A stretch of 64,000 nucleotides of DNA from Streptomyces sp. Root1304 (GTDB taxonomy: Bacteria; Actinomycetota; Actinomycetes; Streptomycetales; Streptomycetaceae), in the NCBI RefSeq assembly GCF_001426405.1, contig NZ_LMEP01000001.1, positions 435,241 through 499,240 on the forward strand, in the 5' to 3' direction. Positions within the stretch are counted from its first letter, which is position 1, and each line of letters begins with the position of its first letter. The notes under the pieces were generated by a model. That model searched no databases and was not told where the DNA came from. It saw nothing but the letters and a program-made list of their open reading frames with translations. A program made the position numbers and the translations under genes. This document shows, one piece after another, positions 52,683 to 64,000 of the stretch.

Positions 52683-53705
52683 ATGCACCCGACCACTGAC
52701 AACCGCCCGGCGCTGCTGCTCGCGATGGGCGAGGACGTCGCCGGACGCCTCCTCACCGACGCCCACCGCACCCGCCTCGCGGTCCTCGCCCGCACCGACC
52801 CGCACCTGGTCGCCCACGACCTGACGGACCCCGGCCCCCGGGCCGCCGCCGCCCTCGCCGAGGCCGAGATCCTCCTCACCTGCTGGGGAGCGACCCCGCT
52901 GACCGCCGAGGTGCTGGACCGCGCGCCCCGCCTGAAGGCGGTCGTCCACGCGGCCGGCTCGGTCAAGCACCACATCACCGACGCCTGCTGGGAGCGCGGC
53001 CTGCGCGTCACCTCGGCCGCCGCCGCGAACGCGCTCCCGGTCGCCGAGTACACGCTCGCCGCGATCCTCTTCGCCGGGAAGCGGGTCCTCGGCTCCGCCC
53101 AGCGGTACGCGGAACTCCGCACCGACCACTCCTGGCTCACCGAGTCCGCCGCCTGGGGCAACTACCGCCGCACGGTAGGCATCGTGGGCGCCTCCCGCAT
53201 CGGCCGCAGGGTCATCGAGCTGCTGCGCCCCTTCGACATCGAGATCCTGCTGTACGACCCCTACGCCGACGTCCCGCCCCCCGGTGTGGAACTGGTCGCG
53301 GACCTCGACGAGCTGTGCGCCCGCAGCACGGTCGTCTCGGTCCACGCGCCCCAGCTCCCCTCCACGTACCGCATGATCGGCGCGGCGCAGCTGGCGGCGA
53401 TGCCGGACGGCGCGACCCTGATCAACACCTCCCGGGGCTCCCTGATCGACGAACAGGCCCTCCTCCCCCATCTCGTCCGCGGCCGGCTCCACGCGACCCT
53501 GGACGTCACGGACCCCGAGCTCCCGCCCCCGGGCTCCCCGCTCTACACCCTCCCGAACGTCCTGCTCACCCCGCACGTGGCGGGCTCCCTGGGCAACGAG
53601 CTCCACCGCATGACGGACCAGGCGCTGGACGAGGTGGAGCGGTACGGGAAGGGCGAACCGTTCGCGGAGGAGGTACGGGCCTCAGACCTGCAGCGCTCGG
53701 CGTAG
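52683..53705 (+). CDS. D-2-hydroxyacid dehydrogenase family protein
   Basis: A 340-residue NAD(P)-dependent 2-hydroxyacid dehydrogenase. The cofactor motif is VGIVGASRIGRRVIELL (GxSxxG variant of GxGxxG), with catalytic Arg in INTSRGSLID, Glu in DVTDPE and His in LTPHVAGS. It is the last gene of the importer operon, 17 bases after the MalG-type permease, so it probably reduces or oxidises a 2-keto/2-hydroxy acid formed from the imported sugar acid. Its last 24 bases overlap the 3' end of the convergent STAND gene. Confidence 0.9.
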   Translation: MHPTTDNRPALLLAMGEDVAGRLLTDAHRTRLAVLARTDPHLVAHDLTDPGPRAAAALAEAEILLTCWGATPLTAEVLDRAPRLKAVVHAAGSVKHHITDACWERGLRVTSAAAANALPVAEYTLAAILFAGKRVLGSAQRYAELRTDHSWLTESAAWGNYRRTVGIVGASRIGRRVIELLRPFDIEILLYDPYADVPPPGVELVADLDELCARSTVVSVHAPQLPSTYRMIGAAQLAAMPDGATLINTSRGSLIDEQALLPHLVRGRLHATLDVTDPELPPPGSPLYTLPNVLLTPHVAGSLGNELHRMTDQALDEVERYGKGEPFAEEVRASDLQRSA

Positions 53706-56700
53706 CCGCGCGGCCTCGTCGAGGACGAGCGGAACCGCTTCGGGCGCGACGTCGAGAACGGCCGGCAGCACGACCGGCCGTTCGCCCAGCCGCAGCGCGA
53801 GCACGGCCCAGCGTCGGGCCCGTACGGGATCGGGCTCGGCGCGGGCCAGCAGCGCGTAGGCCTCGCCGCAGGGCGGACCGACGTGGTGCATGCCGTCGAG
53901 GAGGGCGGCGGCGTGGTCGTACCGGGCGGTCCGCAGCAGCTCGGTGACCACGGTGACGGACCACCGCCCCGGATAGCTGTGCGGAAACTCGCGGAACCGG
54001 GCCACTACCTCGTCGCAGGAGCCGGTGACGACGAGCGCGACGGGCGAGGTCCGCTGCCACGGGAACCGGGCGAAGCACGCGGCGCCCAGGGCGGCCGCGT
54101 TCTCCGGTGCCAGGGCGCACTCGGCGCGCAGCAGGGGCAGCGACGCGGGCCCGTCGAGTTCCCGCGCGCGGGCGGCGGCCAGGTAGTGCTCGGCGTCCTC
54201 GCGGCGCCCCCGCTCCCCACAGGCCAGCGCCATCCGCGCGTACACCTCCACGGCGTTCGGCGCCGCGGGCCGACCCGACATCAGTTTCTCCGCCCGCTCC
54301 CTGGCGCCGACGGCCGCGAAGGCCACGGCCGCCTCCTGGCCGAAGTTCTCGTGCGTGCCCGGATCCCCGACCAGCCGCAGGACGCGGTCGAACTCCCCCT
54401 CGGCCGCGTAGGCCTCGTAGAGCCGGCGGAACAGCTCCCGCCGCAGTGACCACGGCGCCGCCCGGATGAACGTCTCCGCCCACTCCCACCGCCCCGCCGC
54501 GAGCGCCACGAGGGCGGCGTCGCGCGGCTCGACACCCGGCTCGTTCTCCACGGCGCGGAGCAGATCCACCGCCTCCTCGCGCCGCCCGGCCTCCGCCAGG
54601 CCCCGGGCGAGCGCCACCAGGTCACCGGCCAGCGCCGCCCGCGCGGGGACGCGCACCCTCCTCTCCTCCGCCGCGAGCAGCCGCCGGGCCTCGGCGACGT
54701 GGCCCGCCCGGTACAGCTCCTCCGCGAACACGGCGAGGCCCTCCGTGTTCTCCCCCAACTCCCTCATCACCGCGCGGGCCCGGTCCACCGCTCCCTCCGC
54801 GAGCAGCCGGCGGAGAAGGGCTCCGAGCACCCGGAGGCCGTCGCCGCTCCGCCCGGACCTGCCCCGGGGCGCGTCCGGGCCCGCCACGAGCCGTGCGCAC
54901 AGCGGGGCGACGGCCTCCAGGTCCCCGCGTGCCAGCAGGGCCTCGGCAAGCGCGGGCCAGGTGTCGTCGGAGTACCGGCCGGGACCCCGTTCCGGAGCCA
55001 GGGCCAGGGCCCGCTCGACGGCACCGGCGCGCGCCAGCCCGCGGGCGACCCGCCCGCGCAGGGTCTCCCTGTTGTGGTCGTCCAGGGTCCCGGCGACCTC
55101 GAGGGCCTCGTCCCACCGGCCGTACTCCGCCAGCGCGGCGGCGTACGAGAAGGCCTCCTTCCCCGCACCGACGGCACGCGCCGCTTCGGTCTCCCCGGCG
55201 GCGAAGAGGGCGGCGATCACCTGCCCGCCGAACCGCGCGAACTGCCGGCGGTCCATCCGCGCCAGGCGCCTCGTCGCGAGGCGCAGCACTCCCTCCGCCG
55301 CGTCGCGGTGACCGGCCGCGCGCAGGGCGACCGAGGCCCTGAGCATCACCGCCACCCGTCCGCCCAGCTCCTCCTCACCCCCGAAGCACGCCTCGTTCAC
55401 CGCCTCGTCGATGCGACCGTCCCGAACCAGGGCGGCCACGACGGCGGACCGCAGGACCGGCCGCGTGGCCGGGTCCTGCTCCGACTCCACGAGGGCACCG
55501 GCCCTGCGGTACCGCCCCGCCGCGAGCAGGAGATCCGCGAGCATCCGCCGGGAACGGGGCGCCACACGGGAGTGGTGCGCCCTCACCAGCCGTTCCGCCC
55601 GCTCGGGCGCGCCGAGCCGCACGAGCAGCAGCGGGAGGGCGTCGCCCGCCGCGGGGGACGTGATGTCCGTGAAGCCCCTCGTCAGCGGCTCCGCCTCGTC
55701 TGCGAGTGCCTCGGCCCGCTCCCGCTCCCCCGCGTCGAGCAGTTTCTCCGCCACCACGCACAGTCCCTCGACGACACGGTCGCCCTCCAGGCTCCGGGCG
55801 AGCGCCACCGCGCGGTCCGGCCGCCCGACGGCCACCCAGCCCGCCAGCAGGGAGACCGGCACGCTCCCGCTGCCCCGGAGCAGCGCCGCCCGGGCCGTCG
55901 CGAGCCGCAGCGCGGCCACCACCGAGCCCTCGGCCTCCACCGCGCTCTCGACCACCACCGAGCCCTCGGCCTCCGCCCGGCCGAGGACCGCGTCCTCCGC
56001 CGCCCCGATCTCCGCCAGCGCCGCCGCGTCGCCCCCGGTCACGGCGAGGAGCCGGGCGTGGCGCCGCTCGTCCACCGCGCAGGCCACCAGCCGCTCCGCG
56101 TCCCCGGCCGCCCGCAGCATCGGGACGTACCCGTGCAGGAGGTAGTCCGGGGTGTCGTCCGGCCAGCCCCGCTCGCGCCGGCGGCCGGCCCAGTCGTGCA
56201 GCACCGCCCGCCACCGGTCGAGCTCCCGGTCCCCGAGCATCTCCCGGGCGCGGACGACCAGTTCCTCGTGCGCGAGCAGGTACGCCTCGCTCCGCCGCGC
56301 GAAGGTACGGCCCGGTCCCGTCCGCAGCACGTCCCGCACCCGGTACGGCACCGCGCCCGTGAGCTCCGCCAGGTCGTCCGCCGTCAGGCCGCCGCCCGCC
56401 GCCGTGACCAGGGCGAGCAGTTCGTACGGGAGGCCGCCCGCCTCCAGGAGGCGTTTCAGTTCGCGCTCGGCCTCGACGCGGATCGCCCGCGCGGACGGGG
56501 ACGGGGCGAGGGGCCGGACGACCGCGGGGTCCCGGAGCGGATGGTTCTCGGGGACGTCGGCCGGGAGCGGCGGGTTCGGGCGGCCCGAGACGATCACCCG
56601 GAGGCCGTACGGCAGCAGGCCTGCGATCGAGCGGGCGTCCGCCCCCGTGGTCACGCCCCGGTCCTCGTCCAGGCCGTCGACGAGGAGGACCAGGCGCTCG

Positions 56701-57194
56701 CCGCGCGCGGCGCACGCCTCGGCGGCCGAGGTGTACAGGCGCAGGAGGTGGGCCTCCCTCGTCGCCGCCGTGAGCAGGGCCGGCAGGCCCTCGCCGGCCA
56801 GTTCGGCGAGCTGTTCCAGGACCACGTCCGTGTAGGCGGCGACATCGTTCTGGGCGCCGAGGCGGGCGGTGACGAAGAAGGGGACGATCCGTACGCCCGG
56901 CGGCGGATCGAGGGCGAACCACGCCATCAGCGCGGTCTTCCCGGCCCAGGCCTCGGCGCGCCAATACGCGTACGCCGGGCCGGAGTCGGCTCGGCAGAAC
57001 TCCGCCAGCTCCACCAACTCGGCTTCCCTGCCGACGAGTTCGGGCGGGGCGATGCGGCGCACCTGCTCCCGGTAGGCCGAGCGGACGGCCGGCGGCGTCC
57101 CGTTCACGACGCGGTTGCCGTCGCCGATGACGACGACGCCCGGCCCGTTGTCGACCGTGATCGACGGCCGCGGCTCTCCCCCTGCCCGCTCCAT
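53682..57194 (-). CDS. Large STAND-type NTPase with TPR/ARM-like helical repeats
   Basis: A 1170-residue protein. A short N-terminal segment (ITVDNGPGVVVIGDGNRVVN, ~12-31) resembles the glycine/asparagine motif that starts many Streptomyces STAND proteins. The NTPase core follows (~45-340): ELVGREAEL, P-loop EAWAGKT (Lys86), Walker B RLVLLVDGLDED (~167-178) and sensor-like VIVSGRPNPPLP. From ~400 to the C-terminus are helix-turn-helix repeats of the form AAGETEAARAV / ARAGAVERALAL / LLARGDLEAVAPL. STAND proteins are switches in signalling, apoptosis-like and antiphage systems. No effector domain is recognisable, so the output is unknown. ATG 57194 is the start; divergent from the ester-cyclase-like gene by 46 bases. 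Confidence 0.85.
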   Translation of the reverse strand: MERAGGEPRPSITVDNGPGVVVIGDGNRVVNGTPPAVRSAYREQVRRIAPPELVGREAELVELAEFCRADSGPAYAYWRAEAWAGKTALMAWFALDPPPGVRIVPFFVTARLGAQNDVAAYTDVVLEQLAELAGEGLPALLTAATREAHLLRLYTSAAEACAARGERLVLLVDGLDEDRGVTTGADARSIAGLLPYGLRVIVSGRPNPPLPADVPENHPLRDPAVVRPLAPSPSARAIRVEAERELKRLLEAGGLPYELLALVTAAGGGLTADDLAELTGAVPYRVRDVLRTGPGRTFARRSEAYLLAHEELVVRAREMLGDRELDRWRAVLHDWAGRRRERGWPDDTPDYLLHGYVPMLRAAGDAERLVACAVDERRHARLLAVTGGDAAALAEIGAAEDAVLGRAEAEGSVVVESAVEAEGSVVAALRLATARAALLRGSGSVPVSLLAGWVAVGRPDRAVALARSLEGDRVVEGLCVVAEKLLDAGERERAEALADEAEPLTRGFTDITSPAAGDALPLLLVRLGAPERAERLVRAHHSRVAPRSRRMLADLLLAAGRYRRAGALVESEQDPATRPVLRSAVVAALVRDGRIDEAVNEACFGGEEELGGRVAVMLRASVALRAAGHRDAAEGVLRLATRRLARMDRRQFARFGGQVIAALFAAGETEAARAVGAGKEAFSYAAALAEYGRWDEALEVAGTLDDHNRETLRGRVARGLARAGAVERALALAPERGPGRYSDDTWPALAEALLARGDLEAVAPLCARLVAGPDAPRGRSGRSGDGLRVLGALLRRLLAEGAVDRARAVMRELGENTEGLAVFAEELYRAGHVAEARRLLAAEERRVRVPARAALAGDLVALARGLAEAGRREEAVDLLRAVENEPGVEPRDAALVALAAGRWEWAETFIRAAPWSLRRELFRRLYEAYAAEGEFDRVLRLVGDPGTHENFGQEAAVAFAAVGARERAEKLMSGRPAAPNAVEVYARMALACGERGRREDAEHYLAAARARELDGPASLPLLRAECALAPENAAALGAACFARFPWQRTSPVALVVTGSCDEVVARFREFPHSYPGRWSVTVVTELLRTARYDHAAALLDGMHHVGPPCGEAYALLARAEPDPVRARRWAVLALRLGERPVVLPAVLDVAPEAVPLVLDEAARLRRALQV

Positions 57195-57939: not shown

Positions 57940-57978
57940 CGGCCTGCAAAGAGAGGCCGTTCAGGACCGGAATCGAAG

Positions 57979-58297
57979 TTGCTGGCGTACGTGGAAGTGG
58001 GGCAGACGCCCGACTTGTACGCGCACGCCCAACACCGAGCCGCTTCGAGCCTGGGGGGGACATTCCAGTTCATGGGCGCCTGTGGCCGCATCAACGAGTC
58101 CGACGTGCTGATCACCGTCCCTGGCGGGCTGAATCTGCTGGAGCTGAAGGGGCACTCCCGCCAGATCTTGAACCACAGCGGCACCTGCCATTCCCACGGT
58201 GGCCGGGTCAGCACCCTCCGCAATCCCTGCATCTGACCGATCTCAACGCCAAGGAACTGACGGGCGAGAGGGGCGGCCAGCCGCCCCTCCATCGTCT
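57979..58297 (+). pseudogene. NERD-domain protein fragment, frameshifted
   Basis: An N-terminal fragment in one frame (57979-58236) reads YVEVGQTPDLYAHAQHRAAS, GRINESDVLITVPGGLNLLE and LKGHSRQILNHSGT, matching the NERD nuclease-related domain that opens kinases and helicases of the PglW type. The frame stops at LRNPCI; in the next frame the sequence continues LHLTDLNAKELTGERGG, as expected for such proteins, so a one-base deletion near 58226-58230 broke the gene. No 5' start region or downstream kinase/helicase is recognisable. Homology to intact genes has not been tested. Confidence 0.6.
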
Positions 58298-58471
58298 TGT
58301 CAGCCGCGCACGGCCATCTGGCAGTGGCTGCCCACTTCTGGGCATCGACGCAGACACGAGCGTGCTCCTGCCGCTTGGAGTCACGGTCAAGCATCGCCGT
58401 TCCAGCGTCTGCGGCCTCGACGCAGTCGCCACCATCACCCGCGCGGTCGCGCCGCCAACGACCGATGCGGC

Positions 58472-59947
58472 TCAGGTCGCCACTCTGGGCACTCCGCCCT
58501 TGCGACCCACGCCGAAGGCGATCCGGTAGACATCCGGGAGGTCGATGCGGCGGTCGGCGCGGCGGCGCATCACGCCGAGCTCGATCAGTTCCTCGATCAG
58601 CTGGGCCGGGTTCTCTGGGTAGCGGGGGCCCGTACGCACCGGTGAGTCGCCCTCAGGGTTCCCCGGCACGTAACGCTCGGCCTCCTTGCGCAGGGCGTCC
58701 ACAAGGCGGTGCTCCTCCCACAGGGACTCGACCTTGTCCTGCTCGATGGGCACCTGGTGGCCGGCGAGCGGTTCGATGGCCAGGCTCACCCATGGCATGT
58801 CCTCGCTGACCTCGACGACTCGCGTCTCCGAGGCCTTCTGCACTCCGCGTCGGATCCCCTCGTGGTGCAGTGCGAACTCGTGACCCGCGTACTGCCCCTT
58901 GGTCTCCGACAGGGCTTTCTGCAGGGCGCTCAGAAAGCTGCGGGGACTGACCTGTTCGACGCCGTCCATGAGGTGATTGGGCAGCCACGTGAAAGTGTGG
59001 CCCTTGCGGAAGTTGGACCCCATGTAGGGTCCGGCGACCTGGGTGAACTGATCTGTCTGGAACTGCTCGTCACCGCTGAGCAGTGCGGGTGGAACATGAC
59101 GTCGACCGTCCGCCTCGCTCTGCCAGCCCCCCGTCAGTTGCCGGAAGCGCGCCGCTAGCACACTGTCGGCGTTGCCCATGGTGTGAAACAGCAGTCCGTA
59201 AAGGTTGGCTCGCGACCAAGTCAGGGCCGCGGCGTTGGAACTGAGCTTGGACGCGTCTGGGAAGTGGAGCAGGGCGCCGTCGTACATGTCAGGACGGATG
59301 AACACCTTGAACCGGATGGCGCGTGTACCCAGGCGCATGGCGAGCGCCAGTTCCAGGATGCCGCCCACGAGCTTGTCGGCCTGCGCCCGGACGCGGTGCA
59401 GGTGATCCAGAGCGTCGAACAGGACCAGGTGGGTAACGCCGTCTTCCTGGGCCTGGCGGTCGACGACCTGGATGGTGCGCTCGACCGCGCCCGGATTGTT
59501 GCGCACCCAGGCGGCCTTGTCCCGCCACTCGGTCAACTCGCGCAGCTCCGGTTGGCCGAACGCGGTCAGCAGCACGGCGTACCAGAGGTCGTAGGGAGGG
59601 ATGCCCTCCTCCATCAACTGTCGCAGGTTCCCCGTCCCAGGGTAGAGGTCCGGTTCCATGGAGGCTCCGTAGCCCCGATACACCTTCACCCTGCGCAGTC
59701 GCTCAATGCCGTACTCCTGGGCGGCGATCTCTCGCAGGGTCTCGTCGAGGAGCGAGCGGTACCAGAACGTCTTCCCGACGCCCCGGCCGCCGCGGACCAC
59801 CGTGCTGTCGACGTAGAGGGCCGCACGATGGCTGTCCGGGGTGAACAGGCTCTGCACGTTCGGCTCGGCGGTGTCGGCGTCCGTGGCCTCCGGGAGTGCG
59901 GCGGCCAGAAGCTCGCGATACTCCTGGACGCTCAGTGGGGTGGTCAT
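58472..59947 (-). CDS. P-loop ATPase, third gene of the HEPN/KGGVGR cassette
   Basis: A 491-residue P-loop protein. Walker A is GGRGVGKT (53-60) after SLFTPDSHRAALYVDSTVV, and the Walker B-like region is THLVLFDALDHLHRV (~172-186). A sensor-like FKVFIRPD follows (~213-220). The central region contains conserved-looking SKLSSNAAALTWSRANLYGLLF, and the C-terminal ~110 residues resemble a winged-helix end (IEELIELGVMRRRADRRIDLPDVYR). The overall style is that of a STAND-like or ORC-like ATPase of conflict systems; no nuclease or protease domain is evident. The ATG overlaps the upstream ATPase stop (TGATG), so it is translationally coupled. Codon use is less GC-biased than neighbouring core genes. 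Confidence 0.8.
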   Translation of the reverse strand: MTTPLSVQEYRELLAAALPEATDADTAEPNVQSLFTPDSHRAALYVDSTVVRGGRGVGKTFWYRSLLDETLREIAAQEYGIERLRRVKVYRGYGASMEPDLYPGTGNLRQLMEEGIPPYDLWYAVLLTAFGQPELRELTEWRDKAAWVRNNPGAVERTIQVVDRQAQEDGVTHLVLFDALDHLHRVRAQADKLVGGILELALAMRLGTRAIRFKVFIRPDMYDGALLHFPDASKLSSNAAALTWSRANLYGLLFHTMGNADSVLAARFRQLTGGWQSEADGRRHVPPALLSGDEQFQTDQFTQVAGPYMGSNFRKGHTFTWLPNHLMDGVEQVSPRSFLSALQKALSETKGQYAGHEFALHHEGIRRGVQKASETRVVEVSEDMPWVSLAIEPLAGHQVPIEQDKVESLWEEHRLVDALRKEAERYVPGNPEGDSPVRTGPRYPENPAQLIEELIELGVMRRRADRRIDLPDVYRIAFGVGRKGGVPRVAT

Positions 59948-61332
59948 CAGGGTCCCTTGCTGCTCTGCGGATCTGCGGTGATCAGGAGCGTAGCGGTGGG
60001 CAGGAAGTCCTGGTACGCCGCCTGCACGAAGGCCCGGTCCTGCCACCCCGGGACGGTGACCGCATCCAAGCCGACGAGTCCCGGCTCGAAGAGGATCGGG
60101 ACGGGGTGGTGGGGTGCCGATTCGTCTTCCAAGGAGGGAGAGAAGAGGTCGGGGTCGAGCTCGTTGGTCCCCGAAGCCGGGACATCGTCGTCATACAGCA
60201 GGGAGAAGCACTCCCACGCGTGCTCACGGAACGACCGCAGATACGCGTCCTGCGGCGAGTCGGGCACCATCGAGGCCACCATGCGCAGCTTCTCCCGGAT
60301 CGCCGGCGCCTGCCCGGAGGAGAGCCACGCCGCGAAGAGGTCCCCGTAGCCCTGCCAGGTCTGCGCGTTGTCCGTGCCGAAGAGCAGAGCCAGGTCACAC
60401 AGGCGGGAGATGGTGACGGCGGCAATGTCATGGATGCCGGCCCTGCTATCGAGGAGGACGATGTCGGGGCGACGGCCGCTGTCGCCGTTCCGAACCACCG
60501 CGTCCTCGCAGGCACGGACTGCCTGTTCCAGCCGATCGGAGAAGCCTGCGCCGGGCACGTCCGCGTACACACGGTTGAGCTTATCGACGTAGGCGTACGG
60601 AATGCCGGGCGTCCCTTGCCCGCGAGCGGGCGCCAGCCACAGCTCGCCCCGGCCGCCTCGAGGCATGTAGGCCGAGCGGACGACATGCTCGAGCCCCTCG
60701 TCATTGCCGATGGCCGCCTCGACGAGCTGGTCGATGATGCCGTGCGGGGGCAACTCCGCTCCGGCGGCAACGATCGGGCCGACACCCGGCGACTCCAGGT
60801 CCAGGTCGACGACGAGCACAATGTGCCCCTTGTCTGCGAGGTGGCGCGCGAGGACAGCAGTGGCCGTACTGCGACCGACACCGCCCTTGAAGCCGTAGAG
60901 CGCGGTGCGGTGGGTACGCGTCCCGTCAGCTTCTGCAGCGGGGGTGGACACATGTGCCCAGTCCTCGCCCACTACGGTGTTGTCAAGCACGCGGACCCGG
61001 CCGGCAGGCCGCTCCGGGTCGGCCACGGCGCGCTCCGAGTCAAGCAGCACCCCTGCCGAGAAGAGCCCGGACGCCCGCATCAGCGGTCGGTCCGCGGCGT
61101 ACGGTCCCAGGTCTCGGGCGACACGGGGCCCGTAGATCTCTTCCAGGTTCTCCAGAGCTGGCGGGACCTGCCGATTGCGGTCGTCAACGATGAGGGTGAA
61201 CCGTCCCTGCACGTCACGGACGGCCAGGACGTCCACCCCGACGGCCGCCAGCTCGTGGGCGAGAGCGAGGGCAAGCAAGCGCGCCTCGGCAAAGCGGACG
61301 GGTCCGCCAGCCGGTTCAGGGACGAGAGTCAC
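59947..61332 (-). CDS. KGGVGR-motif variant ParA/MinD-like ATPase
   Basis: A 461-residue ATPase. Residues ~1-130 form an N-terminal domain with LLALALAHELAAVGVDVLAV and GRFTLIVDDRN. The ParA-like core follows: deviant Walker A GFKGGVGRSTATAV (KGGVGR 149-154), VVDLDLESPG (~174-183, Walker A' Asp), IVLLDSRAGIHDIAA (Walker B). The Arg after KGGVG instead of Lys-Thr is the hallmark of a variant family seen in actinobacterial accessory loci. GTG 61332 overlaps the upstream stop by four bases, and its own stop overlaps the next ATG. The long N-terminal extension of the frame upstream of 61332 overlaps the HEPN-like gene and is not coding. Confidence 0.85.
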   Translation of the reverse strand: MTLVPEPAGGPVRFAEARLLALALAHELAAVGVDVLAVRDVQGRFTLIVDDRNRQVPPALENLEEIYGPRVARDLGPYAADRPLMRASGLFSAGVLLDSERAVADPERPAGRVRVLDNTVVGEDWAHVSTPAAEADGTRTHRTALYGFKGGVGRSTATAVLARHLADKGHIVLVVDLDLESPGVGPIVAAGAELPPHGIIDQLVEAAIGNDEGLEHVVRSAYMPRGGRGELWLAPARGQGTPGIPYAYVDKLNRVYADVPGAGFSDRLEQAVRACEDAVVRNGDSGRRPDIVLLDSRAGIHDIAAVTISRLCDLALLFGTDNAQTWQGYGDLFAAWLSSGQAPAIREKLRMVASMVPDSPQDAYLRSFREHAWECFSLLYDDDVPASGTNELDPDLFSPSLEDESAPHHPVPILFEPGLVGLDAVTVPGWQDRAFVQAAYQDFLPTATLLITADPQSSKGP

Positions 61333-61817
61333 GGCATCCTTCCGGTGATGAGTGCCTGTTCGTGTAGGGCCAGTATGTTCTCGGCCACCGTACGCCGCTG
61401 CCGGACATCCGCCTCGACGACGGCGCTGCCGTCGAGGTAGCGGTCGTGCACCGACCATGTCGCGAAGGCGCTGAGACCCGCGAGTGCGGCGGTCAGGCTG
61501 GCTGCCGACCGTCCGTGCGTGAGCAGGGACACGTCGGTCGTCAGCCCGGGGAGGTGGCCGTGTTCCTGAAAGGCGCCGGTCATCGGATTCATGGACCACG
61601 GCTTGGTCGCGGGCTTACCGTTGGGTTTCGGGCCCATGGTGGCAGTGGTGAAACGCAGCAGCAGGCTCTTCAGAGCGCATTCCACCGCGAAGCCGAAGTG
61701 ATGGTCGGCATTGGACAGCCTCGCGCCGTCGTGGAGAAGGACAGCATCCTTGTAGTGGCGAAGAGCTGCATGGGCGAAGTGGTGCTCTGCTGAATTCACC
61801 TGCACGGGAGAGATCAT
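61329..61817 (-). CDS. HEPN-like small protein, first gene of the cassette
   Basis: A 162-residue helical protein. Its N-terminal half (SAEHHFAHAALRHYKDAVLL, ARLSNADHHFGFAVECALKSLLLRF) matches the HEPN pattern, in which the second helix contains N-A-x-H-x-x-x-x-A-x-E-x-A-L-K. The RNase signature R-x4-6-H is not evident, so it may be a non-catalytic HEPN used for assembly or signalling, or a toxin of another type. ATG 61817 is preceded by a short promoter region. Its stop overlaps the start of the KGGVGR ATPase (GTGA), so the three genes are coupled. Confidence 0.7.
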   Translation of the reverse strand: MISPVQVNSAEHHFAHAALRHYKDAVLLHDGARLSNADHHFGFAVECALKSLLLRFTTATMGPKPNGKPATKPWSMNPMTGAFQEHGHLPGLTTDVSLLTHGRSAASLTAALAGLSAFATWSVHDRYLDGSAVVEADVRQRRTVAENILALHEQALITGRMP

Positions 61818-62774
61818 AGGCGGGGCGGTCCGGAACCGGTACGGCTCCGCCGCGCAAGGCTCTCCCTTCTCACCAACCCACCGACGCCCACAACAGGCCG
61901 ACCAACCCCCGCAGCGCCCACCCCGCGCCCTGCAAGCACTGCCGTACACGAAGAGATCCTGGTCAGCGACCCGAGCGGGCGGGAGCTTCAAAGCACAGCC
62001 ACCGCATCCTCGGGTGCCGCTTCGTTCACCAGCACCCCAGTCCACCCTCCCTTCCCCCGCCCACGACGCCCTGGAGTTGGTCGTGGCCGAGCTTCCCAGC
62101 AACGCCACCAGCCGGGCCCGATCTCGTGGAGGACGGACGCCTGCTGTTCGGGCCGCGCTGAAAGACTCAGGGCCTCGCTGCGGGCGCAGCTAAACGGCGT
62201 TTTAAGCAGTGGCACTTCATGAATCTGACGGCGTCGTGCACGGCTCCGCCGCCGTTAACCGTGCTGAACGGTCGCACAGAAAACGGCCGCACAGACCCGG
62301 ATCTGCTCACCGAAGAAGTCGAAGGGCCACCGAAAGCTGCTGCTTGCGAGGCGCAGTTGGGTGGGGACATACATCCACTGGCGACGCAGACGTGCTTCGT
62401 GGAACCGACAGAAGACGGCGGGCGTGCCAAGTGGAATGGATTCGGACCGGACCGCTTCCGTTCACACACTCTGACGCGCACCGCCGGGGAGGTTCTGCCC
62501 GACACCGATCCACCCGTGCTACTCACGTTGCGGGCACAGGCGAAACTGGCCGAGGCCCGGGAAGCGTATCTGGACCTGATTTTATCTGGCGGGAACAGCG
62601 ATCACTCGCCAGGGAGACGGCGACGTCCGGTGGAATCACTACCGCAGCGTCTCGCGGAGGCAGCTCTCGCGGCGCGCCTGCCAGACATCGAAGGGCGTGA
62701 GCACTGCTCTCAGAGCCTGTCCGCTTCGTGCTGCGCACTCATAGCTGACAACTCCACCCACGTAAGAAGAAAAA
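61818..62774. other. About 1 kb of non-coding, decayed DNA between the cassette and groEL1
   Basis: No frame in this region is convincing. Around 62052-62110 the + strand reads PAHDALELVVAELPSNATSR, which resembles the N-box region of GHKL/HATPase anti-sigma-like proteins (ELVVSELVTNAxRH), and 62111-62160 continues in another frame, suggesting a decayed gene. A frame at 62219-62854 lacks homology I can recognise and overlaps groEL1 in antisense. Confidence 0.45.
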
Positions 62775-62835: not shown

Positions 62836-64000
62836 TCAGTGCGAGTGGCCGTGACCGTGGCCGTGGCCCGCGTCGGCCGGCTCCTCTTCCTTCTTCTCCA
62901 CCACGAGGGTCTCGGTGGTGAGGAGGAGGGAGGCGATCGAGGCGGCGTTCTCCAGGGCGGAGCGCGTCACCTTCACCGGGTCGATGACGCCGGCCTTGAC
63001 CAGGTCGCCGTACTCGCCGGTCGCGGCGTTGAAGCCCTGGCCCTTGTCGAGCTCCGCCACCTTCGAGGTGATGACGTAGCCCTCGAGGCCGGCGTTCTCG
63101 GCGATCCAGCGCAGCGGCTCGACGGCGGCGCGGCGGACGACCGCGACACCCGTGGCCTCGTCGCCGGTCTTGTCGAGGTTGCCCTCGAGGACCTTGACGG
63201 CGTGGACGAGCGCGGAGCCACCACCGGAGACGATGCCCTCCTCGACCGCGGCGCGGGTCGCGGAGATGGCGTCCTCCAGACGGTGCTTCTTCTCCTTCAG
63301 CTCCACCTCGGTGGCGGCGCCGACCTTGATCACGCACACGCCGCCGGCCAGCTTCGCGAGGCGCTCCTGGAGCTTCTCGCGGTCCCAGTCGGAGTCCGTG
63401 GACTCGATCTCGGCCTTGATCTGGTTGACGCGGCCCTGCACCTCGGAGGAGTCGCCGCCACCGTCGACGATCGTCGTGTCGTCCTTGGTGATGGTGACGC
63501 GGCGGGCGGTGCCGAGCACGTCCAGACCGGCCTGGTCGAGCTTGAGGCCGACCTCCTCGGCGATGACGGTCGCACCGGTGAGGGTGGCGATGTCGCCGAG
63601 CATGGCCTTGCGGCGGTCGCCGAAGCCGGGGGCCTTGACGGCCACGGCGTTGAACGTGCCGCGGATCTTGTTGACGACCAGGGTCGACAGGGCCTCGCCC
63701 TCGACGTCCTCGGCGATGATCAGCAGCGGCTTGCCGGCGCCGGCCTGGATGACCTTCTCCAGGATGGGCAGCAGGTCCTGGATCGAGGAGATCTTGCCCT
63801 GGTTGATCAGGATGTACGGGTCGTCGAGGACGGCCTCCATACGCTCCTGGTCGGACACCATGTACGGGGACAGGTAGCCCTTGTCGAAGGCCATGCCCTC
63901 GGTGAAGTCGAGCTCCAGGCCGAAGGTGTTGGACTCCTCGACGGTGATGACACCGTCCTTGCCGACCTTGTCCATCGCCTCGGCGATGAGCTCGCCGACC
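62836..64000 (-). CDS. groEL1: Chaperonin GroEL1, 5' end outside window
   Basis: The C-terminal ~388 residues of a 60-kDa chaperonin; the frame stays open to the window end ([22 protein letters not shown]). Visible features: substrate-binding apical region [25 protein letters not shown]-binding and hinge segments [28 protein letters not shown], equatorial [43 protein letters not shown]. The C-terminus ends in a His-rich [10 protein letters not shown] tail, which marks the actinobacterial GroEL1 type rather than the Gly-Gly-Met tail of GroEL2. groES should lie just beyond 64000. A strong terminator follows the gene. Confidence 0.96.

Follow-up and report, generated by a model that had tools for sequence, protein, structure and literature searches.

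A HEPN/ATPase gene trio matching candidate system PDC-M28 is often embedded in BREX islands and stands intact among BREX type 2 remnants in Streptomyces

A 64,000-nucleotide stretch of the genome of Streptomyces sp. Root1304 (assembly GCF_001426405.1, contig NZ_LMEP01000001.1, positions 435,241 to 499,240 of the forward strand), referred to here as the window, carries three overlapping genes beside groEL1. They encode a protein with a HEPN fold (gene A), a ParA/MinD-like ATPase with a KGGVGR variant loop (gene B), and a P-loop ATPase (gene C). The locus raises the question of what this trio is, whether its members belong together, and why three intact genes stand between fragments of others. 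The explanation that we favor, with a probability of about 0.5, is that the three genes form a self-contained accessory cassette, often resident in bacteriophage exclusion (BREX) islands, that this cassette has outlasted a deleted BREX type 2 island at the site, and that it is likely to encode a HEPN toxin gated by ATPases.

Identity and co-occurrence of the three genes

PADLOC recognized A, B, and C, gene for gene, as the candidate system PDC-M28, with E-values of 5.9e-40 for A, 1.8e-131 for B (PDLC04559), and 8.9e-174 for C. The genes are adjacent and all three proteins match over nearly their full length. An initial annotation of this DNA could assign the trio to no named system, a statement that no longer holds. 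Its description of three genes overlapping by 1 to 4 bases is exact in both coordinates and overlaps (Table 1). PDC-M28 is an uncharacterized catalogue entry, and searches of 5.39 million papers for "PDC-M28," "KGGVGR," or "Sll1717" returned nothing. What the present analysis adds to the entry is a link to BREX, an interpretation of the residues of A, and the finding that the trio can stand as an orphan.

Relatives of C were found in 28 of 295 Streptomyces genomes. Among 396 genomes of the phylum, three had a match: the genome of the window, a second Streptomyces, and a third in which the match was distant and partial. A scan of 84,980 species genomes gave 117 confirmed relatives, of which the best 80 were taken. 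With 15 duplicate loci dropped and the window's own locus not counted, 93 distinct C loci were compared with iterated profiles. Because these loci were chosen for their similarity to C, the counts give the frequency with which C is accompanied by A and B, not the reverse. The three genes stood in one order on one strand at 78 of the 93 loci, so that the homologues, whose co-occurrence the initial annotation had left to be counted, are not scattered. Of the remaining loci, 12 had C alone, 2 had B as well as C (a fusion at locus L054 and a locus cut by a contig end, L104), and 1 had pieces of A and C. When the nearest start was taken, a method that favors small gaps, a 4-base overlap joined A to B at 65 and B to C at 62 of the 78 trio loci; at one of the 78, L055, B and C are fused. 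The trio ranges from Actinobacteria to Proteobacteria and also occurs in a metagenome-assembled genome (MAG) of Chloroflexi.

The trio is also found on plasmids. C was present in 21 of 72,556 plasmid records, and all four proteobacterial plasmids that were inspected carried A-B-C, as checked with hidden Markov models. A tyrosine recombinase gene lies just upstream of the trio in three of the four, two from Enterobacter and one from Paraburkholderia. Recombinase and trio together span L138 5914-10449, L139 5938-11602, and L140 6057-10422; the two Enterobacter plasmids are conjugative and of type IncF, and at L139 the trio is followed by a gene for a TIR-domain protein. A search of the Enterobacter trio DNA against 20,395 Escherichia coli records found nothing, although this was a nucleotide search that distant copies could escape. 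A phage origin of the trio was considered and rejected, since neither IMG/VR viral contigs (four pattern matches, of which none was confirmed) nor 50,697 phage records yielded a relative of C.

Association with BREX islands

Clustering of the genes that flank the trio yielded large recurrent families that included pglW, pglX, pglY, and pglZ. PADLOC assigned nine flank proteins, from L097, L089, L060, and L133, to PglX, PglW, BrxC/PglY, PglZ, BrxD, and BrxHI. When the fetched flanks of up to 10 kb were searched with profiles from the PglW, PglX, PglY, and PglZ families (E <= 1e-6), BREX genes were found at 46 of the 78 distinct trio loci, compared with 0 of the 12 loci that have C only. No BREX gene was found in the fetched flank of the other 32 trios. 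The BREX genes are of type 2 (Pgl) at 45 of the 46 loci. The remaining one, in a Halomonas MAG (L128 797-16206), has a type 1-like BREX in which pglX and pglZ flank the trio and A overlaps the end of pglX by 4 bases; its assignment rests on a BrxC profile match and on PADLOC calls for PglX and PglZ.

The position of the trio within the islands varies. Layouts were tabulated for 47 loci, including the cut locus L104. The trio lies reversed between pglW and pglX at 21 loci (L104 shows only pglW) and in the forward direction in the same place at 17 (L117 shows only pglW). At four loci it lies reversed between pglX and pglY, and at another four it follows pglX in the forward direction, two of these being complete to pglY and pglZ and two being cut by a contig end. 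In a tree of C (88 rows, a quick build lacking bootstraps and with several long branches, from which six partial, relic, fused, or distant rows were excluded), the reversed pglW-pglX layout formed one clade, the forward pglW-pglX layout required two changes, which is compatible with one origin, and the pglX-pglY layouts fell elsewhere. The placement of the layouts on different branches indicates repeated entry of the trio into BREX islands or relocation inside them.

The association also holds at the level of whole genomes. With a threshold of E <= 1e-100 and two candidates scored per genome, so that extra copies may escape, PglW was detected in 64 of the 295 Streptomyces genomes, at 67 places. 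The full trio was present in 19 genomes, 17 of which also had PglW (Fisher p 1e-10), and in all 17 the distance between C and the nearest PglW ranged from 53 bases to 15.4 kb. Conversely, the trio was found at 17 of the 67 PglW places and was absent from 50.

The initial annotation's proposal of a setting typical of defense islands thus holds for the window site and for 46 of the 78 loci. The stand-alone trios are a different matter. Among the 32 BREX-free loci, 28 were scanned with PADLOC, no more than five of the closest proteins being taken per locus (of 137 listed proteins, 120 were scanned, with 10 copies of A and 7 others dropped), and at E <= 1e-20 mad3 was found at four loci and each other family at one. 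Pfam matches near these trios were to housekeeping genes, for example those for succinate dehydrogenase, MnmA, and GroEL. With few defense genes and such neighbors, a general defense-island setting is not claimed for stand-alone trios.

A former BREX type 2 site at groEL1

Two relatives of the window's genome, Streptomyces genomes G207 and G216, carry a complete island, pglW-pglX-HTH (helix-turn-helix gene)-[trio reversed]-pglY-pglZ-brxD-brxHI, between groEL1 and the genes found at the left in the window. In the tree of C the window falls in a group of seven (support of 100 in the Shimodaira-Hasegawa-like approximate likelihood ratio test) together with four copies from the reversed pglX-pglY layout and with L059 and L083, which have no BREX gene in reach.

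In the window, the interval from a SnoaL gene to groEL1, which adjoins the trio as described initially, is occupied by the intact C-B-A genes and by fragments. These scars, which were looked for in blastn comparisons with G207, are listed in Table 1. The initial annotation had recognized relics on both sides of the trio; they can now be specified as pieces of pglW, of the stretch downstream of pglX, and of brxHI, from an island that relatives carry whole. An earlier interpretation of the relics as generic debris was dropped once the flank clustering had yielded pglW, pglX, pglY, and pglZ. The upstream relic gave weak matches with proteobacterial queries and a clear match with Streptomyces BrxHI (tblastn, E 3e-36; the best value over 50 shuffled copies of each flank was 0.68).

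Table 1. Features of the trio and its surroundings in the window (G, genome; L, locus; blastn similarities are to G207 DNA)
Feature	Positions	Strand	Evidence or remark
Gene A, HEPN fold, 162 amino acids, PDC-M28A	61329..61817	-	ATG 61817, stop 61329
Gene B, ParA/MinD-like KGGVGR-variant ATPase, 461 amino acids, PDC-M28B	59947..61332	-	GTG 61332, stop 59947
Gene C, P-loop ATPase, 491 amino acids	58472..59947	-	ATG 59947, stop 58472
Overlap of A stop and B start, 4 bases, GTGA	61329..61332	-	Sequence
Overlap of B stop and C start, 1 base, TGATG	59947..59947	-	Sequence
Relic of pglW 5' part (NERD region), three frames	57974..58268	+	tblastn, collinear pieces, E 2e-16; G207 PglW, E 7e-20
Relic of pglW at DNA level	58027..58268	+	blastn, 74.9% over 243 bases, E 7e-41
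Relic of stretch just downstream of pglX	58281..58450	+	blastn, G207 3932395-3932562, 73.4%, E 7e-22
Possible short scrap of pglY, inverted relative to other scars (tentative)	62104..62154	-	blastn, 80.4% over 51 bases, E 2e-7
Relic of brxHI 3' part and brxHI-groEL1 spacer, internal deletion at 62633	62211..62735	+	
brxHI 3' part	62211..62633	+	blastn, 74.5% over 424 bases, E 1e-73
brxHI end with spacer	62633..62735	+	blastn, 73.1% over 104 bases, E 1e-10
groEL1 3' part, insertion-site marker, outside cassette	62836..63975	-	Same neighbor in G207, G216, G189, G062, L059

Of the BREX type 2 gene set (pglW, pglX, pglY, pglZ, brxD, and brxHI), only fragments were found at the window locus. The window's genome as a whole had no PglW match at 1e-100 and no BrxC/PglY or PglZ match, brxD and brxHI not having been sought genome-wide; the PglZ scan does find PglZ in G207 and G216. 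A PglX profile matched only positions 191 to 298 inside a frame of 1,897 amino acids. Judged by these remains, the window holds a former BREX type 2 site, not a BREX type 2 system, and several deletions on both sides have removed the island and left three intact reading frames. Pairwise ratios of nonsynonymous to synonymous substitution (dN/dS) were 0.08 to 0.36 for eight pairs and three genes, in orphan and embedded copies alike. Such values are consistent with continued constraint on the trio, yet they mix the time before and after the loss of BREX.

Other genomes show different states of the same site. At L059 the scars differ, comprising 31 bases of brxHI (E 3e-6) and 156 bases of the HTH-side spacer (E 3e-10). 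In G189 the trio is present and blastn against G207 found no scar. In G062 only pieces of A and C remain at the groEL1 site (C52:104939-106685); that genome keeps PglW and PglZ on another contig (C28:18499-47116). The groEL1 site therefore offers a natural series in related Streptomyces, from full BREX with trio, through trio with scars and trio alone, to remnants only, in which the BREX dependence of the module can be tested without engineering.

In comparison with G207 and G216, the window has about 12 kb of additional DNA between the left-hand genes and the SnoaL gene. It includes the nearby STAND gene of the initial annotation, which PADLOC assigns to STAND_TPR (53682-57194, minus strand; PDLC01173, 5.4e-94). 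This gene has no match at 1e-20 in loci L030 to L142 and is thus not part of the cassette.

The two ATPases and their natural fusions

The initial reading of B as a ParA-like ATPase with a KGGVGR loop is well supported. B contains the motif FKGGVGRS, scores 178.6 bits against NCBIfam NF047398 (AAA_KGGVGR; cutoff, 90), and has ParA/CbiA-type Pfam matches. The position of the Walker A lysine is occupied by arginine in 92 of 94 aligned B sequences, duplicates included.

C was described as a P-loop ATPase with no obvious effector domain, and this description stands. The Walker A residues G53, G56, G58, and K59 and an F177-D178 pair are invariant in 53 aligned C sequences, and no Pfam domain scored above its cutoff. 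Against NCBIfam NF047389 (P-loop ATPase, Sll1717 family), C reached 56.3 bits, below the cutoff of 75, and by this measure is a relative rather than a filed member of the Sll1717 family. A confident structure model of C resembles STAND and ORC/Cdc6-like AAA+ ATPases in fold, with Walker A and B present. Its Foldseek matches include BrxC of Acinetobacter BREX (1.5e-4); BrxC is not among the 50 rows of VIA-align.

Fused forms link B and C directly. At L055, in Streptomyces, the upstream gene encodes a relative of A (129 amino acids; profile E 2e-11) and shares 4 bases with the gene for one B::C-like protein of 872 amino acids. This fusion represents a sister family, with 538 relatives at E <= 1e-20 among 7,994 candidates scored; of the 120 listed, 116 have a length of 800 amino acids or more. 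The B-like half precedes the C-like half, the order of the trio. A Nostoc plasmid (L142 5330-8442) has a two-gene form in which a HEPN-like gene (A profile, E 4.5e-9) accompanies a fused ParA-type ATPase, with hsdR adjoining. Neither of two Streptomyces fusion loci lies beside the PglW of its own genome. A scan for the fusion family in 296 Actinobacteria genomes had no matches; it was run without a positive control, and two Streptomyces genomes do carry fusions.

Over 74 loci, protein distances were correlated at 0.85 for A and B, 0.96 for B and C, and 0.88 for A and C, values to which shared species ancestry may contribute. The B::C fusions provide independent support for a B-C complex, and B and C probably form one complex. 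The initial annotation had deduced a complex of fixed stoichiometry from the tight coupling of the genes. The evidence agrees with it as far as a co-inherited unit and a probable B-C complex are concerned, but it does not extend to a fixed stoichiometry for A.

The HEPN protein and its candidate active site

A has no Pfam match. A confident structure model nevertheless has the HEPN four-helix fold, in agreement with the initial description of A as HEPN-like. Eight residues (G42, E46, C47, K50, H88, W121, R126, and Y127) are invariant in 72 aligned A sequences, with H21 at 97%, and R126 is present in at least 90% of a second set of 43 sequences. E46 and K50, kept in 72 of 72 sequences, form the second HEPN motif, Ex3[KR].

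R126 stands at what we take to be the usual place of the HEPN RNase motif. A histidine at the Rx4-6H spacing (+5 to +7) follows R126 in 12 of the 72 sequences, scattered over L089, L085, L080, L091 to L094, L117, L122, L124, L132, and L133, but not in the window. The initial statement that A has no visible RNase motif is therefore correct only at R126; elsewhere in the protein another, motif-like Rx4-6H string, Rx5H in the window (R33-H39), begins at R33 in 44 of the 72 sequences. This string and the scattered histidines after R126 may indicate that the active site has shifted within the A family.

Many HEPN families have the Ex3[KR] motif (Anantharaman et al., PMC3710099). In families of the AbiV/AF0298 type the motif histidine is typically absent, the basic residue is kept, and another conserved histidine further toward the N terminus has been proposed as part of an alternative active site (PMC3710099). 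Most A sequences fit this description: the E46-K50 pair, R126, and H88 are kept, but 60 of 72 lack the motif histidine. AbiV is named in the title of PDB entry 9bj6 as an RNase in a two-component antiphage system. We infer that A may be an RNase that uses R126, H88, and the E46-K50 pair. The residue counts in themselves neither prove nor exclude such an activity.

How the cassette might work

In the favored explanation, C and B, with its variant loop, would form a nucleotide-dependent complex that keeps A inactive, and ATP-bound or DNA-bound C would be the sensor. The signal would be linked to phage; foreign DNA and blockage of BREX are candidates. Once released, A would cut or block RNA and halt the growth of the infected cell. 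BREX acts on DNA, and the trio behind it would thus be a second line of a different kind. A more far-reaching and less probable model is that the trio is a mobile, autonomous second-line cassette that has repeatedly entered islands of two BREX types and survives the loss of BREX by virtue of its own off-switch, with a STAND/ORC-like sensor and a KGGVGR switch, fused to each other in a sister family that is widespread, gating a noncanonical HEPN RNase.

The orphan copies are informative about control. A toxin held in check only by BREX would be freed when BREX is lost. The persistence of intact orphan trios suggests instead that the off-state is intrinsic to the trio and independent of BREX proteins.

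Known systems provide partial precedents. PrrC is a HEPN RNase encoded inside the PrrI type Ic restriction operon (PMC3710099), and the trio resembles it as a possible HEPN RNase with ATPase control that serves as a second line inside a DNA-based defense locus. However, PrrC is one protein kept inactive by its restriction partner, whereas the ATPases of the trio are two distinct proteins and the trio is still present at sites from which BREX has disappeared; the BREX-free orphans argue against a strict, PrrC-like dependence on a host system. In the MAE_18760 family, likened here by its description, a HEPN gene lies beside a ParA/Soj ATPase gene, as in the trio. That arrangement, however, has two genes and its HEPN protein is listed as keeping Rx4-6H (PMC3710099), whereas the trio adds a STAND/ORC-like ATPase and has the motif histidine in 12 of 72 sequences. 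HEPN, Schlafen, PIN, and PARIS-like modules are among the BREX accessory effectors described in a 2026 survey (PMC12839542), and the trio resembles these nuclease modules in being embedded in BREX loci as a proposed backup. None of the words ParA, SIMIBI, Soj, PDC, or Sll1717 occurs in the main text of the survey, the covered parts of which describe no such trio. ParA-like effectors occur in other conflict systems (PMC7159879), and the covered parts of that article likewise contain nothing on the trio. Sequence parallels are provided by the Sll1717 family NF047389 and the KGGVGR::Sll1717 fusions, in which B-like and C-like halves occur in the same order; in the window B and C are separate genes.

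These comparisons turn an anonymous candidate system into a concrete hypothesis, that of a BREX-associated backup module with its own control. If it is true, BREX islands host guest immune cassettes, and a HEPN toxin can be gated by a STAND-like ATPase together with a ParA-like one. No description of an embedded second-line module with such a gating pair was found in the literature searched.

Alternative explanations

The strongest rival is that the trio is an addiction cassette, a three-part toxin-antitoxin system with A as the toxin and B, C, or both as the antitoxin, that establishes itself in islands, persists because its loss is costly, and has no defense role of its own. We regard this as unlikely, although it deserves to be taken seriously. 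It would explain why the trio is intact in the window and at L059 although the island has gone, and why trios occur on plasmids, three of four inspected with a tyrosine recombinase alongside. A toxin-antitoxin role has also been postulated for the HEPN gene beside a ParA/Soj ATPase gene that is discussed above (PMC3710099). However, a free addiction module would not be expected to show so strong a preference for BREX, three genes that include two ATPases exceed the needs of a simple antitoxin, and in G062 the greater part of A and C is gone with no apparent ill effect.

A considerably weaker proposal is that the trio is a subunit or regulator of BREX that joins its machinery and tunes its activity, with C resembling BrxC and ORC-like ATPases. 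The Foldseek match of C to Acinetobacter BrxC and the embedding of the trio in two BREX types with near-zero spacing, as at L128, point in this direction. Nevertheless, BREX is missing from the fetched flank of two-fifths of the trios (32 of 78), the window's own genome keeps the trio intact where PglW, PglY/BrxC, and PglZ gave no match, and most PglW places lack the trio.

It is improbable that the trio is a partition-like or DNA-maintenance module, in which the ParA-like and ORC-like ATPases work on DNA with the HEPN protein as no more than a noncatalytic adaptor. Such a function would suit the kinship of B with ParA/MinD and of C with ORC/Cdc6, the occurrence of C on plasmids, and the missing motif histidine of most A sequences. 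It would leave the frequent embedding of the trio in chromosomal BREX islands, the arginine at the Walker A lysine position of nearly all B sequences, and the strict conservation of E46, K50, H88, and R126 in A without a reason.

Streptomyces has large genomes with many islands, but the idea that the genes are mere neighbors, with spacing typical of compact Streptomyces operons and proximity to BREX due to chance within defense islands, is refuted for co-occurrence by the trio count, the BREX flank counts, and the PglW genome counts, and has almost nothing left to recommend it given a gene order kept across phyla, the B::C fusions, PglW within 16 kb of the trio in all 17 PglW-bearing trio genomes, and trios inside BREX operons in several layouts.

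Further observations on trio and C loci

At two loci from Methylomonas and Methylovulum genomes, the neighbor is mnmA, which encodes a tRNA 2-thiouridylase; L134 7168-12881 lies between mnmA and purB, and L137 7137-8674 has mnmA directly upstream. Such a translation-linked neighbor may hint at the target of the trio. At L125 the trio follows a YebC-family gene. One Streptomyces clade (L049 to L051, L113, L116, and L119 to L121) has C without A or B, possibly as part of another C-based system, and L049, L113, and L116 share a gene for 174 amino acids that ends at or just before the start of C. At L118 (9739-10729, the same locus as L052), the first half of A lies near the last half of C, a trio remnant that adds a second natural product of decay to the one in G062.

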